A stretch of DNA of 64,000 nt, taken from Acidobacteriota bacterium (GTDB taxonomy: Bacteria; Acidobacteriota; Blastocatellia; Pyrinomonadales; Pyrinomonadaceae). The position numbers and the translations under genes are program-made. Below the pieces are notes generated by a model, which saw only the letters and a program-made list of their open reading frames with translations, searched no databases and had not been told where the DNA came from. The first letter of the stretch is position 1. Each line of letters opens with the position of its first letter. Location of the stretch: NCBI GenBank assembly GCA_018269005.1, contig JAFDVK010000032.1, positions 186,001 to 250,000 on the forward strand, read 5' to 3'. Of this stretch, positions 35,181 through 63,659 are shown piece after piece.

Positions 35181-35654
35181 ATGGCAGCTGCGACAGAAGC
35201 ACAATCTACCGACCAACTTGCCCTCGAAGGATTTTCTGCACCCTTCCTTCTTCGATGTGGCGCTATATTGATCGACTACATCATCTTTCTCATATTCCCG
35301 GTAGGCGGACTCCTCTCCGAGCGAATGTTCTCGGGTGGATTGAACATTGCGACCGACGCGACTCTCTGGTTTATCGCGACACTCCTATCCGTGGTGAACC
35401 TTGTCATTCTCCCCATTGTATGCAGGCAGAGCATTGGCAAGCTATTGACCGGACTGAGGATCATCTCGAAAACCGGCGAACGAGCAGGAACTGGTGCATT
35501 GATCCTTCGCCAGACCGTCGGCTACCTTCTGACCTTAGTCACACTCGGGCTTGGGTTTCTGATCTGCCTTTTCACACCGAAGGCCAGGACGCTTCACGAC
35601 TATCTGACCGGTACACGAGTTGTGCGTGCGTCACGCCGCGAGATCCGCTCATAA
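35181..35654 (+). CDS. RDD-family membrane protein
   Basis: This 157-residue protein has three transmembrane helices and the RDD layout (FLLRCGAILIDYIIF near the N-terminus with the conserved Arg and Asp, and RTLHDYLTGTRVV near the end). The function of RDD proteins is poorly known; some are proposed Na+/H+ or Li+ antiporters. It sits between the kinase and phosphatase genes, 32 nt after the kinase and 1 nt before the phosphatase, so it may be a membrane target or sensor of this phospho-signalling set (inference). Confidence 0.88.
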   Translation: MAAATEAQSTDQLALEGFSAPFLLRCGAILIDYIIFLIFPVGGLLSERMFSGGLNIATDATLWFIATLLSVVNLVILPIVCRQSIGKLLTGLRIISKTGERAGTGALILRQTVGYLLTLVTLGLGFLICLFTPKARTLHDYLTGTRVVRASRREIRS

Positions 35655-35655
35655 A

Positions 35656-37320
35656 ATGGCATATCTACACATTATCAGCGCGGGCCGCCCAGAAGAGACC
35701 GTTGAACTTACAAAGCTGAGAACGACAGTGGGACGTTCCGCGCGAAGCGACGTTTGTATTCCCGACGCATTCGCTTCCCGGCTGCACGCCGAGATCAGGC
35801 GCGAGAATGACGTTTACTGGCTTCACGATCTTGGCTCTGCGAACGGTACTCGATACAACGGCAATATCCTGACAGCATCCGTTCCCCTTTCGACTGGCGG
35901 AGCGATCCAGATCGGCGAAACAACTCTTCGGTTCGAGGACGACCATGCCGTGCCTCAATTCAACAGCGCTCAATTGTTCGCCGAAACGACCGCCGGCCTT
36001 GATCCAGCAAATACGATCTCATTTAGCCTTCGCCGAAATCCGACAACCGAGATACTTGAGTCCCAAACTTCCAGCAGAACGGATCTTCTTGGCCTGATCA
36101 GCAAGGTTGGCGTTACGCTGCTCGCATCTCGCGGCTTGGATGAAACCCTCGATTCTGTCGCGTCACTTGTTTTTGAGGCCGTCCCGGCCGAGCGGGTGAT
36201 CATTATGCTCCGGGAACAAGGCTCCGACTGCGAGATGGAAGTAAAGGTCGCGCGTGCACGCGGAAAAGAGGAAAGCCTGAAAGAGGTCCGAATTAGCCGT
36301 AACATAATGACCGAGGTCGTGGACCACGGCAAGTCCGTGCTGACCTCTGATGCCCAACACGACCCGAAGTTCGCCAGTCAGACGATCATGCTCCAAGGTA
36401 TCCGCAGCGTCCTTGCCGTTCCGTTGAGCGTGGACGAGACGGACGTCTTCGGCCTGATCTATGCAGATTCACCAACGCACGAGGCCACATTCAAACCCGA
36501 ACATCTCGACATACTTACGACGCTTGCGTCAGTCGCCTCTATTCGGGTCGAGAATGCCAGCCTGACCGAAGCCCGTATCGAACGTCAACGAATGGAGCGT
36601 GAGCTCGAACTGGCGACGGAGATTCAACAGCGCTTTCAGCCTTCCGGCCCGCCTAAAGTCGATGGTTATGAATTCCAAGGGATATCGTTCTCTTGTTACG
36701 AGATCGGCGGCGATTACTACGACTTCATTCCTAGAAGCAACGGCCGGATGTTGTTCGCTTTGGGCGACGTGTCGGGTAAAGGTACGGCGGCGGCATTGCT
36801 TATGTCGAGCCTTCACGCTGCGATCCACGCCCAGGTCGCCGCGGATCGGGAACTTGCGACTACCGTCGCTTCGATCAATGCGTATCTAGCGGAAAATACT
36901 CCAGCGAACCGGTTCGTCACGCTCTTCGTCGCGGAACTCGATCCGGCAACAGGCGTTGTTCAATTTATAAATTGCGGGCACAACCCACCGTTGATCGGAC
37001 GTGCGGACGGAACGGTAGAACAGCTTGCCTCCGGCGGTCTTCCGCTTGGGATCATCCCGTCCGCTGAGTATGAGTCCGGAACGATCACACTTACCTCCGG
37101 TGATGTACTTGTTGCCTATTCTGACGGCGTCTCCGAGGCGAATAACGTGAATGAGGAAGAATTTGGCCTCGACCGTCTGACCAAGGTGGTTCAGGCAAAT
37201 GTCGCTTCGTCCGCTTCCGGATTGCGCGATAAGGTCGAATCCGCCCTTTCGGCATTCACGGGAACTGCTCCCGCGAACGATGATATTACGCTGGTGATAG
37301 TCAAGAAGACGGTCAATTAG
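35656..37320 (+). CDS. FHA-GAF-PP2C (SpoIIE-type) Ser/Thr phosphatase
   Basis: This 554-residue protein has an FHA domain (about 1-105; GRSARSD, SRLHAEI, GSANGT), a GAF domain (about 150-310) and a PP2C/SpoIIE catalytic domain (about 325-554). Metal-binding motifs are visible as GGDYYD, GDVSGKG and SDGVSEA. Such enzymes dephosphorylate Ser/Thr residues, often on anti-sigma-antagonist proteins, under control of the GAF sensor. The ATG at 35656 is 1 nt after the RDD stop; an earlier in-frame ATG at 35620 would overlap that gene. The phosphatase is the natural opponent of the kinase two genes upstream and is followed by a terminator. Confidence 0.94.
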   Translation: MAYLHIISAGRPEETVELTKLRTTVGRSARSDVCIPDAFASRLHAEIRRENDVYWLHDLGSANGTRYNGNILTASVPLSTGGAIQIGETTLRFEDDHAVPQFNSAQLFAETTAGLDPANTISFSLRRNPTTEILESQTSSRTDLLGLISKVGVTLLASRGLDETLDSVASLVFEAVPAERVIIMLREQGSDCEMEVKVARARGKEESLKEVRISRNIMTEVVDHGKSVLTSDAQHDPKFASQTIMLQGIRSVLAVPLSVDETDVFGLIYADSPTHEATFKPEHLDILTTLASVASIRVENASLTEARIERQRMERELELATEIQQRFQPSGPPKVDGYEFQGISFSCYEIGGDYYDFIPRSNGRMLFALGDVSGKGTAAALLMSSLHAAIHAQVAADRELATTVASINAYLAENTPANRFVTLFVAELDPATGVVQFINCGHNPPLIGRADGTVEQLASGGLPLGIIPSAEYESGTITLTSGDVLVAYSDGVSEANNVNEEEFGLDRLTKVVQANVASSASGLRDKVESALSAFTGTAPANDDITLVIVKKTVN

Positions 37321-37340
37321 GCGGTTTGCAGGAAGACATT

Positions 37341-37377
37341 AAAAGGCTCCGATGCATACGAACATCGAAGCCTTTTT
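37341..37377. terminator. Bidirectional terminator after the phosphatase gene
   Basis: AAAAGGCTCCGATG pairs with CATCGAAGCCTTTTT around an 8-nt loop with one mismatch. On the plus strand it ends the FHA/kinase/phosphatase operon. On the minus strand it is followed by TTTTAATG and can end the transcript that begins with the c-di-AMP riboswitch. Confidence 0.8.
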
Positions 37378-37473
37378 CCTTTGAGAAGACCGAAGTCTCT
37401 TGCGTTTCGTTGAAAAATAGCGGGAAGCACATGAAAAATCGGCCTTTTTTTATGGGCACAATCCCCAGCTGTA

Positions 37474-37625
37474 ACTTCTTTGCCACACCTACGAGGTTAG
37501 CTGACGGGCTAGGAACGAAAGAGTATCCCCTCGACCTCATTTGTCGATTAGCCCCTGCCGCAGAAAGCTCTGCGAACTTTGGTTCCCCCGCGCCGCTTAA
37601 ACATTAGCGGCTTCGGCGATCGAAT
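37474..37625 (-). ncRNA. Cyclic-di-AMP riboswitch (ydaO-yuaA class), orphan
   Basis: The minus strand matches the conserved blocks of the ydaO-yuaA aptamer in the correct order: GCCGAAGCC near the 5' end, GGGGGAACC, GGGGCTAATC, GGGGATACTC, then CCCGTCAGCTAACCTCG and a closing GGCAAAGAAG. This order and spacing agree with the published Thermoanaerobacter and Bacillus aptamers as I recall them. The class binds c-di-AMP and usually switches off cell-wall hydrolase or potassium/osmolyte transport genes. No recognisable gene follows in the transcription direction: about 100 nt later comes a two-way terminator, then the convergent phosphatase gene. The stretch 37378-37473 holds a cUUCGg tetraloop hairpin (37387-37398) and a doubtful 38-codon frame. 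Nothing else is apparent in the 37321-37719 gap apart from two poly-A tracts near 37690 and 37711. Confidence 0.85.
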
Positions 37626-37638
37626 TTTCAACAACGGA

Positions 37639-37669
37639 ATGATAACACAAAATTCGGTTACAGTTCCAA
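37639..37669 (-). promoter_or_regulatory. Candidate promoter of the orphan c-di-AMP riboswitch RNA
   Basis: On the minus strand TTGGAA (37664-37669) and TATCAT (37639-37644) are 19 nt apart. Predicted initiation near 37632 would place the 5' end just before the aptamer. This suggests an independent transcript rather than read-through from the oxidase genes. Match quality is moderate. Confidence 0.4.
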
Positions 37670-37719: not shown

Positions 37720-38166
37720 TCATCGGCTCGGATAAAAGTGGTAAAGCATCATATAAACTGTGAACCCCGTGACCGAGACATAAAGCCAAACCGGCATCAC
37801 GAGACGCGCGATCTTGCGGTGCTTCGCAAAGTTCCCTTTTAGCGCATGATAGAGGGTGATAATGACGAAAGGACCTATGCCGGCAGCAAGGATCGTATGC
37901 GACAAAAGGATCGTAAAATATATCGGCCGGGCGAGGCCTTCGCCTGTGAACCTCGTCGGGCCGAGGCCGTAAGCATAGGTCAGCAGAGCATGATGCGTAA
38001 GATATGAGACAACGAAGATCGACGAAATTATGGTCGCCGCAAGCATACAAAAGCGATGGGCGTGAATCTTCCTTCGAAGGATAAAAACGAATCCACTCGC
38101 TAGAAAAAGGCCGCTTGTAAGGTTTAAGAAGCCGTTGAGATGGGGAAATATCTGTAGAGCGTCCAT
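37720..38166 (-). CDS. DUF420 membrane protein (CtaM-like oxidase assembly factor)
   Basis: This 148-residue protein has four to five transmembrane helices and conserved His residues (HLNGFLN, KIHAHRF, THHALL, LSHTILA, KHRKIAR), matching DUF420. Homologues YozB/CtaM in Firmicutes are needed for activity of heme-A-type oxidases (family knowledge). The ATG at 38166 overlaps the subunit III stop by one nt (TGATG), so the genes are coupled, which supports an oxidase-assembly role. The stop is followed directly by T-rich tracts, but there is no clear hairpin. Confidence 0.88.
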   Translation of the reverse strand: MDALQIFPHLNGFLNLTSGLFLASGFVFILRRKIHAHRFCMLAATIISSIFVVSYLTHHALLTYAYGLGPTRFTGEGLARPIYFTILLSHTILAAGIGPFVIITLYHALKGNFAKHRKIARLVMPVWLYVSVTGFTVYMMLYHFYPSR

Positions 38167-38906
38167 CAGCCCATAAAGCCTAAAAGGCCGACAATGATCA
38201 ACCAAAGGCAACCCATCGTATGCCAGTACCAGCCGACGACCTGGCCGATAGTGATCCGCCTTTCGATCTCAAATTCGCTCTTCGGGGCATACCATGACCG
38301 AAGGACGATGGATGACATCGCAATAATGCCGCCGAGAACGTGAACAGCGTGAAGAGCGGTCAAAATATAAAAGAAGCCGGCATACGGGTTTCCGTACGCA
38401 TAATATCCCCACGAGACCAATTCCAACCAAAGAACGATCTGTGATGAAATGAAGCAGCCACCAAGGGCCGTAGCGATCAACAGCCATCTCTTTGCCTTCG
38501 GGTGGTCCTCCGCCATCAACGCCCTTTCGGCGATAACGTAAGCGATACTGCTCAAGATGATAATAGCGGTGCTGACCCAAACCTGGACCGGAAGCGTAAA
38601 AGGCCGCCATTCAATAGAGCGGTTCGTCGCAAGCACTAGATACGCCGCGATCATTCCACCGAAGGTCATTACGACGACCATCAGGAGAAAGTAAGTAAGC
38701 ATCCGGGTCTTGGCCGCATTCGGACGGGTCGCATCGTCAAATCGCTTACGGTCGCCGTCATCGCCGCCGCCCGGACCACTGCCGCCGCCATTTCCGCGAG
38801 GGCCACGGGGATCCCCTCCGCCTGGGCCGGAGCTTGTCAATCCGGGGCGCTTCCCTTTTTTCTCTTCGACAATGTCGTCTAATGTATCAGCGACTCCGAC
38901 TTTCAT
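38166..38906 (-). CDS. Cytochrome c oxidase subunit III-like protein
   Basis: This 246-residue protein has a soluble N-terminus of about 65 residues unusually rich in Gly, Pro and Asp, followed by five transmembrane helices with the subunit III signatures (FYILTALHAVHVLGG and GWYWHTMGCLWLIIVGLLG). Subunit III stabilises the heme-copper oxidase core during proton pumping. Subunits I and II are not in this window, so the catalytic core lies elsewhere. The ATG overlaps the ctaB stop by 4 nt. The Gly-rich extension is odd for the family and may be a flexible interaction arm. Confidence 0.9.
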   Translation of the reverse strand: MKVGVADTLDDIVEEKKGKRPGLTSSGPGGGDPRGPRGNGGGSGPGGGDDGDRKRFDDATRPNAAKTRMLTYFLLMVVVMTFGGMIAAYLVLATNRSIEWRPFTLPVQVWVSTAIIILSSIAYVIAERALMAEDHPKAKRWLLIATALGGCFISSQIVLWLELVSWGYYAYGNPYAGFFYILTALHAVHVLGGIIAMSSIVLRSWYAPKSEFEIERRITIGQVVGWYWHTMGCLWLIIVGLLGFMG

Positions 38907-39805
38907 TTCTTATCGATGACCATCAAAAGAAAAAGCAGCGGCAAGTACACGACGGTGACCAGCAAGAGCTTGCGGGCCGCCTTGTCAGTTTTCTCGATCG
39001 CACACTTAACGCTTGCGAAGAGGATCCAAAAGCCAAGAAGAATTGCCCCGATCAGAAAGATGAACCCCGAATGAGCGAAGAAGAACGGGGCAAAACTCAT
39101 CGGGACGAGCAGTATGGTAAAAAGCACGATCTGCCGCATCGTGATCCGGCCTGTGGGTTCGACGACCGGAAGCATTACGATTCCGGCCCTCTTATATTGT
39201 TCACGATAGAGCCAAGCGATCGCAAAAAAATGAGGAAACTGCCACAGGAACTGGATCAAAAATAGTGACCAGGCAACCAATGTGATGTCTCCCGTGGCGG
39301 CCGTCCAACCCATCAAAGGCGGCAAAGCCCCGGGGATGGCACCGATCGCCGTCGATGCGCTCGTTCGTGTCTTTAGCGGTGTATAAACGAAGTTATAGCC
39401 AACGATAACCGCGAGGCCAAGATACGCGGTCAGCGGATTCACGAGTACGAAGAGCCCGATCTCCGCTATCGCACATTGAAGAACGCCAAAGATCAACGCT
39501 TCATTGCGTGTAACACGGCCGGTCGGAAGTGGACGCCGTGCCGTCCGCTCCATTTTAGGGTCAATGGACCTTTCCGCATACTGATTTAGGGTTGCGACGC
39601 CAAATGCCAATAAACAAATGGCAGCCATTGCAATACCAAAGGTGACCGCATCGAAGCCCTTTTGGCTTCCCATATAGAACCCGGCAGCACTTGTAAGAAC
39701 AAGCAGGAACGCGATACGAGGCTTTGTGAGCTCGAAGTAGGCGGCGATCTTTTCCCGAACGCTAGCCGTTCTGATCGTTTGAATGTCGGTTGCTGCAGAT
39801 GCCAT
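38903..39805 (-). CDS. ctaB: Protoheme IX farnesyltransferase (heme O synthase)
   Basis: This 300-residue, nine-helix membrane protein of the UbiA prenyltransferase superfamily transfers a farnesyl group to protoheme IX, giving heme O for a- and o-type oxidases. The prenyl-diphosphate motif appears as NQYAERSIDPKMERT followed by RRPLP (about 73-92), and the second conserved loop contains YTPLKTRT. It heads the ctaB-coxC-DUF420 operon with coupled junctions. A TATAAT box lies at 39849-39854. Divergent from resB, it suggests joint control of heme and cytochrome maturation. Confidence 0.94.
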   Translation of the reverse strand: MASAATDIQTIRTASVREKIAAYFELTKPRIAFLLVLTSAAGFYMGSQKGFDAVTFGIAMAAICLLAFGVATLNQYAERSIDPKMERTARRPLPTGRVTRNEALIFGVLQCAIAEIGLFVLVNPLTAYLGLAVIVGYNFVYTPLKTRTSASTAIGAIPGALPPLMGWTAATGDITLVAWSLFLIQFLWQFPHFFAIAWLYREQYKRAGIVMLPVVEPTGRITMRQIVLFTILLVPMSFAPFFFAHSGFIFLIGAILLGFWILFASVKCAIEKTDKAARKLLLVTVVYLPLLFLLMVIDKK

Positions 39806-48559: not shown

Positions 48560-48636
48560 GCACCCGTAGCTCAGCTGGATAGAGTATCTGACTTCGAATC
48601 AGAGGGTCGCAAGTTCGAATCTTGCCGGGTGTACCA
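48560..48636 (+). tRNA. tRNA-Arg (anticodon TCG) with encoded CCA
   Basis: The sequence folds as a complete cloverleaf: acceptor GCACCCG/CGGGTGT, D-arm GCTC/GAGT, anticodon stem TCTGA/TCAGA with loop CTTCGAA, and T-arm GCAAG TTCGAAT CTTGC, ending ACCA. Bases 34-36 of the loop are TCG, reading the CGN arginine codons. The first acceptor pair is G-U. CCA is encoded in the genome. The gene is flanked by a repeat-rich gap on the 3' side, but I see no duplicated 3' end that would indicate an integrated element. Confidence 0.96.
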
Positions 48637-63541: not shown

Positions 63542-63587
63542 ACAAATTTGCTTGATATCCCCCCTCTTTGGTGAGAATATTTAGAAC

Positions 63588-63644
63588 ACAGGAAATGGTG
63601 TCTTCCTGGACCAACCGCTATTTCAAATAGCTGATGACGCCTGC
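63588..63644 (+). ncRNA. Fluoride riboswitch (crcB motif)
   Basis: The sequence fits the fluoride riboswitch class throughout. AGGAA pairs with TTCCT (63590-63607). GGTGTC (63597-63602) pairs with GACGCC (63636-63641). The hairpin GCTATT-TCA-AATAGC (63617-63631) is followed by the diagnostic GCTGATGACGCCTGC. A possible promoter (TTGATA 63552-63557, 17-nt spacer, GAATAT 63575-63580) precedes it. The crcB Shine-Dalgarno (AGAGGAG, 63650-63656) follows directly. The class senses F- and switches on fluoride exporters. Confidence 0.95.
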
Positions 63645-63659
63645 TTTTAGAGGAGAACT

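Follow-up and report, generated by a model that had tools for sequence, protein, structure and literature searches.

A conserved c-di-AMP aptamer RNA in the Pyrinomonadaceae, a likely stand-alone RNA gene with a conserved 3' segment

Nearly all riboswitches are taken to be switches of the next gene. The ydaO/yuaA class is described, in the sections of PMC7266159 that deal with it, as linked to genes located downstream, for instance those of K+ transporters. A small number of described systems are arranged differently. The merRNA of Bdellovibrio bacteriovorus is a massively expressed noncoding RNA that contains a c-di-GMP riboswitch; its authors think that it stores the ligand and, in the part of their report that concerns its distribution, saw no conservation beyond the Bdellovibrio lineage (PMC3627812). 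Two further examples come from Listeria, as outlined in the relevant sections of PMC8079631: in Rli55 a vitamin B12 riboswitch controls, through ligand-driven early termination, a noncoding RNA that binds EutV, and the SAM riboswitches SreA and SreB additionally act in trans on a distant mRNA.

The original prediction assigned a ydaO-yuaA aptamer to the window's minus strand (the window being the whole 64,000-nucleotide stretch of DNA analysed here), as part of an orphan riboswitch transcript of about 290 nt that would have a promoter and a terminator of its own but lack a gene. The covariance check bore out the aptamer, as 37628-37471 (-) scored 79.0 bits with RF00379 against a gathering cut-off of 38 (cmscan, E 1e-16, model positions 1-134 in full), and it is the single RF00379 match found in the 3.55-Mb genome. 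Elsewhere in the window the covariance search picked up a tRNA gene at 48560-48633 (+), with 68.7 bits, and, near the end of the window, a fluoride riboswitch (RF01734) at 63582-63650 (+), with 53.4 bits. A diadenylate cyclase domain (PF02457, 142.8 bits), on which the prediction depended, is encoded as well. None of 200 shuffles equals the fold of the predicted RNA (z -3.85), whose length agrees with that expected, and on the sequence evidence the core claim holds up. The features of the locus are:

37632-37341, minus strand: predicted RNA, 292 nt.
37639-37669, minus strand: predicted promoter, with a -35 TTGGAA (37669-37664), a -10 TATCAT (37644-37639) and TGn before the -10.
37625-37632, minus strand: GUUGAAAA, the invariant 5' end and predicted transcript start, 6 nt past the -10, present in 62/62 sequences.
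37628-37471, minus strand: c-di-AMP (ydaO/yuaA) aptamer, RF00379, 79.0 bits.
37475-37481, minus strand: aptamer tail AAAGAAG; an RNAalifold consensus of 39 sequences has its AGAAG (37475-37479) paired to CUUCU within the 3' motif.
37413-37470, minus strand: possible first, attenuator-like hairpin, AGC-u-GGGGA .. UUCCC-g-GCU, then AUUUUU.
37409-37417, minus strand: UUUUUCAAC element, with CAAC in 61/62 sequences (not L092), complementary to the 5' GUUGAAAA.
37379-37390, minus strand: conserved motif GUCUUCUCAAAG, which recurs in relatives.
37341-37377, minus strand: terminator stem-loop T2, a covarying helix of 14 pairs, usable by the plus-strand gene too.
35620-37320, plus strand: FHA-GAF-SpoIIE phosphatase gene (Pfam), a convergent and variable neighbour.
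37720-38211, minus strand: DUF420 protein gene (PF04238), last of the ctaB-coxC-DUF420 group and upstream of the aptamer.
38166-38906, minus strand: coxC, cytochrome oxidase subunit III-like; PF00510 is over its cut-off, the NCBIfam subunit III models are under theirs.
38903-39805, minus strand: ctaB, heme O synthase (TIGR01473, 281.6 bits, cut-off 210.3).

Read along the minus strand, the order is thus ctaB, coxC, DUF420, a 91-bp spacer, the aptamer, the stem-loop 37377-37341 and the convergent phosphatase. With moderate confidence, we read 37632-37341 (-) as a free-standing c-di-AMP-sensing noncoding RNA, the 3' segment of which would be its output, probably acting in trans.

The same arrangement recurs widely in the family, the Pyrinomonadaceae (Acidobacteriota, Blastocatellia). 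Among 119 sampled genomes 101 carry RF00379, and 150 aptamer loci were taken from the matches listed, with flanks of 1.5-3 kb where contigs permit. At 62 of these 150, which come from 62 genomes and represent 9 genera, ctaB-coxC-DUF420 immediately precedes the aptamer, and 61 of the 62 have the full anatomy of promoter-like pair, GUUGAAAA, aptamer, linker, UUCAAC, GUCUUCUCAAAG and terminator; in L047 a contig end cuts the module, and this locus was dropped from the sequence sets. The other 88 listed loci hold the 3' module only in L093, where the contig is cut upstream before DUF420, and in L077 and L078, two copies from genus g6; the remaining 85 are without it. The module is therefore found at 64 loci, 61 with DUF420 upstream, one cut and two, in g6, without. 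In the window's genus 39/41 genomes have the linked copy, which in 20/41 is the sole RF00379 copy among the matches listed; likewise among these matches, the 39 orphan copies of the genus average 77.0 bits and its 25 other copies 70.6.

When the 3' part alone was made into a covariance model (R1) with 39 of these sequences, 65/119 family genomes from 10 genera had a match of more than 50 bits, the next best match reaching 36.3 bits; 39 of the 65 positive sequences trained the model. R1 finds the module in 38/41 genomes of the window's genus and, under stricter filters, in none of 43 further genomes of the class (0 above 50 bits, best 31.1). Since an aptamer without a gene is accompanied by a conserved tail and terminator in about half of the sampled family genomes, it is likely that we are dealing with a stand-alone RNA gene. 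That it should be the decaying remnant of a riboswitch whose gene was lost, as the original prediction had allowed, is scarcely credible: many other family copies do precede same-strand ORFs and resemble it in how tail and hairpin are laid out, but the orphan persists in almost every sampled member of ten genera (several of them represented by one genome only), its mean aptamer score is no lower than that of the genus's other copies, and conservation over nine to ten genera contradicts the idea.

Matches to the motif pattern in genome contigs fall in Acidobacteria/Acidobacteriota, Pyrinomonadaceae, Blastocatellia or Chloracidobacterium in 40 of 41 cases, with 2-3 expected by chance on rough arithmetic. 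The single match elsewhere, in a Bacteroidaceae MAG (L182), is probably due to chance, and a scan of viral sequences with the pattern found nothing. The two g6 copies, L077 (G020) and L078 (G019), are orphan RNAs with a similar tail (UCUUCUCUAAA) and a terminator.

The constancy of the upstream neighbour raises the question of whether the aptamer belongs to the operon in front of it, as a 3' UTR element of ctaB-coxC-DUF420 through which c-di-AMP would control 3' end formation or mRNA stability of these genes for cytochrome oxidase assembly. DUF420 is directly upstream at 61/64 module loci, and the two genomes of the window's genus without a linked copy (G056 and G084) have no DUF420 match in the assembly, which also applies to G013 and G032 from other genera, though R1 finds the module in G013. 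We consider this explanation rather improbable, as a conserved promoter-like pair separates DUF420 from the aptamer, and where a linked copy is absent (57 genomes, 39 of them searched) the 30 DUF420 loci found lack an aptamer core in the next 420 nt. Furthermore, in genus g6 the RNA is found at another locus, away from DUF420, which is present elsewhere; the upstream neighbour, constant in nine genera, is thus not needed.

Just upstream of the aptamer, the promoter-like pair TTGGAA/TATCAT is present as described in the original prediction, with a spacer of 19 and a -35 that matches at 4 of 6 positions; a simple promoter scan of the window, which allows spacers of 16-18 only, does not list it. 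Its support comes from conservation in relatives. Over 61 loci (L122 left out), a -10 with at least 5 of 6 matches is found at 41 (about 21% in shuffles), a -35 with at least 4 of 6 at 47 (about 23% in shuffles), a spacer of 17-18 nt at 52 and TGn at 51; the gap is biased because the script settled ties in favour of a 7-nt gap. The predicted start also has a possible structural role. In a consensus fold of 42 full-length sequences, GUUG of the 5' end pairs with CAAC of the UUCAAC element in 42/42, the pairs being invariant, and GUUGAAAA is complementary to UUUUCAAC, with swapped partners attaining the observed pairing energy in 28/2000 permutations. At several loci (L007, L008, L010, L024, L046 and others) an inverted repeat such as TTGAAATAG..CTATTTCAA spans the promoter; arms of at least 6 occur in 13/61 loci, vs about 9% in shuffles, and perhaps represent an operator.

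About 100 nt downstream, where a two-way terminator had been proposed, the stem-loop 37377-37341 was found. Across 39 sequences 10 of its 14 pairs are changed on both sides and 95.2% of cells are paired. The tail-motif helix and the terminator together give a covariation score of 0.331 in these 39 sequences, vs 0.148 in shuffles and, after sliding, no more than 0.125, with all double changes confined to the terminator helix; a measure of further pair types in the same test gave no excess over chance (144/500 shuffles). A loose scan for a hairpin followed by T identifies T2 at 62/62 loci (132/186 in shuffles), and the longest T run there is at least 5 in 45/62 loci, 4 in 15 and 3 in 2. The window's minus strand has only four U after the stem, and in the simple scan the terminator appears for the plus strand alone; use in the minus direction is backed by the T runs of relatives and by the covariation. 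The claims for a minus-strand promoter and terminator therefore rest on comparison, given the spacer of 19, the four U and a simple scan that lists neither.

The roughly 100 nt between aptamer and terminator hold UUCAAC and GUCUUCUCAAAG. The latter shows 0-2 mismatches at the 61 DUF420-linked loci that are uncut by a contig end (53 exact) and is exact in L093; in the same setting among the other 87 loci it recurs only in L077 (2 mismatches) and L078 (3, picked by eye), and five further matches with 3 mismatches lie in other settings. Comparison of 11 hand-chosen pairs of relatives gave 91-100% identity for the UUCAAC-to-motif stretch vs 79-97% for the 5' end plus aptamer, which takes in variable stems, and the former is the more alike in 11/11. 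It follows that the tail, and not the aptamer alone, is constrained. In the same pairs the promoter region is 58-90% identical and the DNA past the terminator 38-93%.

How this segment folds is suggested by several pairings. The tail-motif helix is paired in 99% of cells and nearly invariant, and covariation cannot prove it for that very reason, as swapped arms reach it in 186/2000 permutations. In L096, from genus g28, tail and motif are altered together (AAAGAG / CUCUU), and in its g28 sister L102 the motif is altered and the tail is not, so that they pair less well. RNAalifold pairs the tail with CUUCU of the motif in the 39 more diverse sequences, with GCUUC before UUCAAC in a 3' alignment of 42 sequences, and with neither in the full-length alignment, where GUUG with CAAC is drawn instead. 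We infer that GCUUC and CUUCU are alternative partners of the tail. The first hairpin shows arms that covary between clades: no permutation of 2000 with swapped arms attains the pairing of the proper ones, which exceeds the row median in 43/59 loci, in a test that, like the other pairing permutations, ignores the kinship of loci and drops L111, L130 and L092. The hairpin-plus-T scan picks up this hairpin at 54/62 loci, little more often than in shuffles (144/186), and a first terminator before UUCAAC is possible. The best attenuator candidates are the g6 copies L077 and L078, which have a T-rich run after the first hairpin (TTTTTCTTTTTC in L078).

Other structures were less convincing. A hairpin flanking UUCAAC was rejected as a universal feature, with helix lengths in 60 loci (L111 and L130 dropped) no longer than in shuffles. 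The arms on either side differ by clade (TCTGCTT/AAGCAGA, TTTGATTT/AAATCAAA), and swapped arms pair worse, none of 2000 permutations matching the observed pairing. An inner hairpin before it was likewise set aside (17/2000 permutations, exceeding the row median in only 31/59 loci), and the folding energy of the linker has a median z of -0.4.

Regular copies of the family, such as L032, L045 and L004, have a terminator-like hairpin soon past the aptamer in 83/85 cases (a loose scan with no control of its own), and by eye the stretch behind that hairpin is complementary to the aptamer tail GAAGAAG. The motif of the orphan may descend from this stretch.

Downstream of the RNA, the next gene is convergent as had been stated, the FHA-GAF-SpoIIE phosphatase at 35620-37320 (+). 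The gap was also compared between relatives, as the original prediction had proposed, and no gene consistently follows. In 61 loci (L037 has no downstream ORF; ORF picking was simple, and some individual calls may be wrong) the first downstream ORF of at least 90 aa is convergent at 50 and on the same strand at 11, the latter being of mixed families and located past the terminator. By blastp these ORFs form 17 clusters, the largest, of a protein of about 565 aa, accounting for 34/61 and the rest spread over 16 further clusters. Action on this particular convergent phosphatase, one of the roles put forward earlier, is unlikely because its family lies downstream at only 6/61 loci, the window and five close relatives, and 55/61 fall in other clusters.

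More generally, the transcript could read through its terminator into whatever lies beyond, and be either an antisense RNA of the convergent gene or, where the next gene has the same orientation, its leader. The prevalence of convergent ORFs, one family being involved at 34 of the 61 loci, and the four U after the window's stem would suit such a role, which we nevertheless consider very unlikely: the RNA is unchanged while the downstream ORF spans all 17 clusters and both orientations, and in most pairs conservation is far lower past the terminator than within the RNA. Members of RF00379 are expected to be leaders of same-strand genes; in the window the first downstream ORF is convergent, and as the orphan RNA is not a leader it lacks this cis-regulatory feature. 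What it does show, judged by sequence alone, is the feature of a free-standing riboswitch RNA, an aptamer RNA without a conserved ORF behind it.

The small frame that the original prediction had called doubtful exists, with 37 aa and a GTG start at 37317-37430 (-), and is not kept in relatives; indeed, no reading frame within the RNA is conserved over the 62 loci. A riboswitch-controlled micropeptide, also on the earlier list of roles, would find some room in this frame and in the many loci where the 57 nt ending at the motif are free of stops (41 to 46 of 62 in any given frame). It is highly improbable all the same, as an ORF of at least 10 codons with a 5-of-6 Shine-Dalgarno match occurs at only 8/62 loci, and the spacings between conserved blocks fall into all three classes modulo 3 (28/20/14 and 16/21/25 of 62). 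The frames thus give the micropeptide no support, and a sensing or sequestering small RNA is the role that remains from that list.

Between these two functions, we tentatively favour a dedicated output RNA, free-standing in ten genera and acting in trans via its 3' segment UUUUCAAC, which would be closed by its own 5' GUUGAAAA. The RNA would be made from its own promoter, and its aptamer would bind c-di-AMP, which would hide or expose the tail. In doing so AGAAG of the aptamer tail may switch its partner, from the stretch before UUCAAC to CUUCU of GUCUUCUCAAAG or the reverse; c-di-AMP could choose between these pairings because the tail adjoins the closing stem of the aptamer. The output would be the segment from UUCAAC to GUCUUCUCAAAG, either dropped by early termination or masked, and the exposed tail would target another molecule in the cell, an RNA or a protein. 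The signal would in this way be passed on by the RNA itself rather than through the switching of a neighbouring gene.

Alternatively, the RNA may be a store or sink, abundant enough to soak up c-di-AMP, with a tail that merely stabilises it. The well-kept aptamer, its own terminator and the lack of a gene or conserved ORF behind it would fit this, pairing between the 5' end and the UUCAAC element, which are complementary, might shield the RNA, and merRNA offers a precedent in so far as the published account proposes such a function for c-di-GMP in Bdellovibrio (PMC3627812). We nonetheless regard a sink as unlikely, since a tail more alike than the aptamer in every pair compared is not something that a pure sink needs.

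For the dedicated output RNA, the nature of the partner was approached through target searches. A perfect target in trans was rejected: the 12-mer CTTTGAGAAGAC occurs 61 times in the 41 genomes of the genus, 35 of these being the RNA itself, and outside the RNA the perfect 12-nt complement of the motif shows no excess in these 41 genomes (26 vs 27 for a reversed control). The partner would therefore be an imperfect RNA target or a protein. Kup was also rejected as a target, with PF02705 in 7/41 genus genomes and none in the window's genome. A search for TrkH gave no match in the window's genome and was positive in 11/14 controls, and one with PF03861 (ANTAR) matched neither the window's genome nor any control genome. 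The window's genome therefore combines a diadenylate cyclase domain and the orphan RNA with no Kup or TrkH found.

If the proposal is correct, aptamers serve bacteria as RNAs in their own right, for signalling or buffering, and a c-di-AMP system becomes open to testing. Among the open-licence PMC papers that our searches listed, we recognised no c-di-AMP counterpart. Compared with the RF00379 riboswitch, the orphan agrees in the sequence and fold of the aptamer, with a score twice the gathering value, and differs in having no consistent gene behind it and a conserved tail and terminator of its own. The closest parallel found is merRNA, in its published description reported from Bdellovibrio only. 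There too, an aptamer for a cyclic dinucleotide is housed in a noncoding RNA of its own that has no conserved ORF; merRNA has a different ligand and aptamer and was found by its massive expression, whereas the orphan is known from sequence, in ten genera and with a conserved tail. Rli55, as summarised in the source cited above, shares the order of parts, with a noncoding output segment placed after the aptamer; its ligand differs, and early termination is only a candidate in the orphan. With SreA and SreB, going by the same summary, action in trans is shared only as a proposal for the orphan, and SreA also controls a downstream operon in cis, whereas the orphan has no consistent downstream gene. 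By analogy, then, the orphan RNA may work most like merRNA or Rli55, both of which use other ligands.
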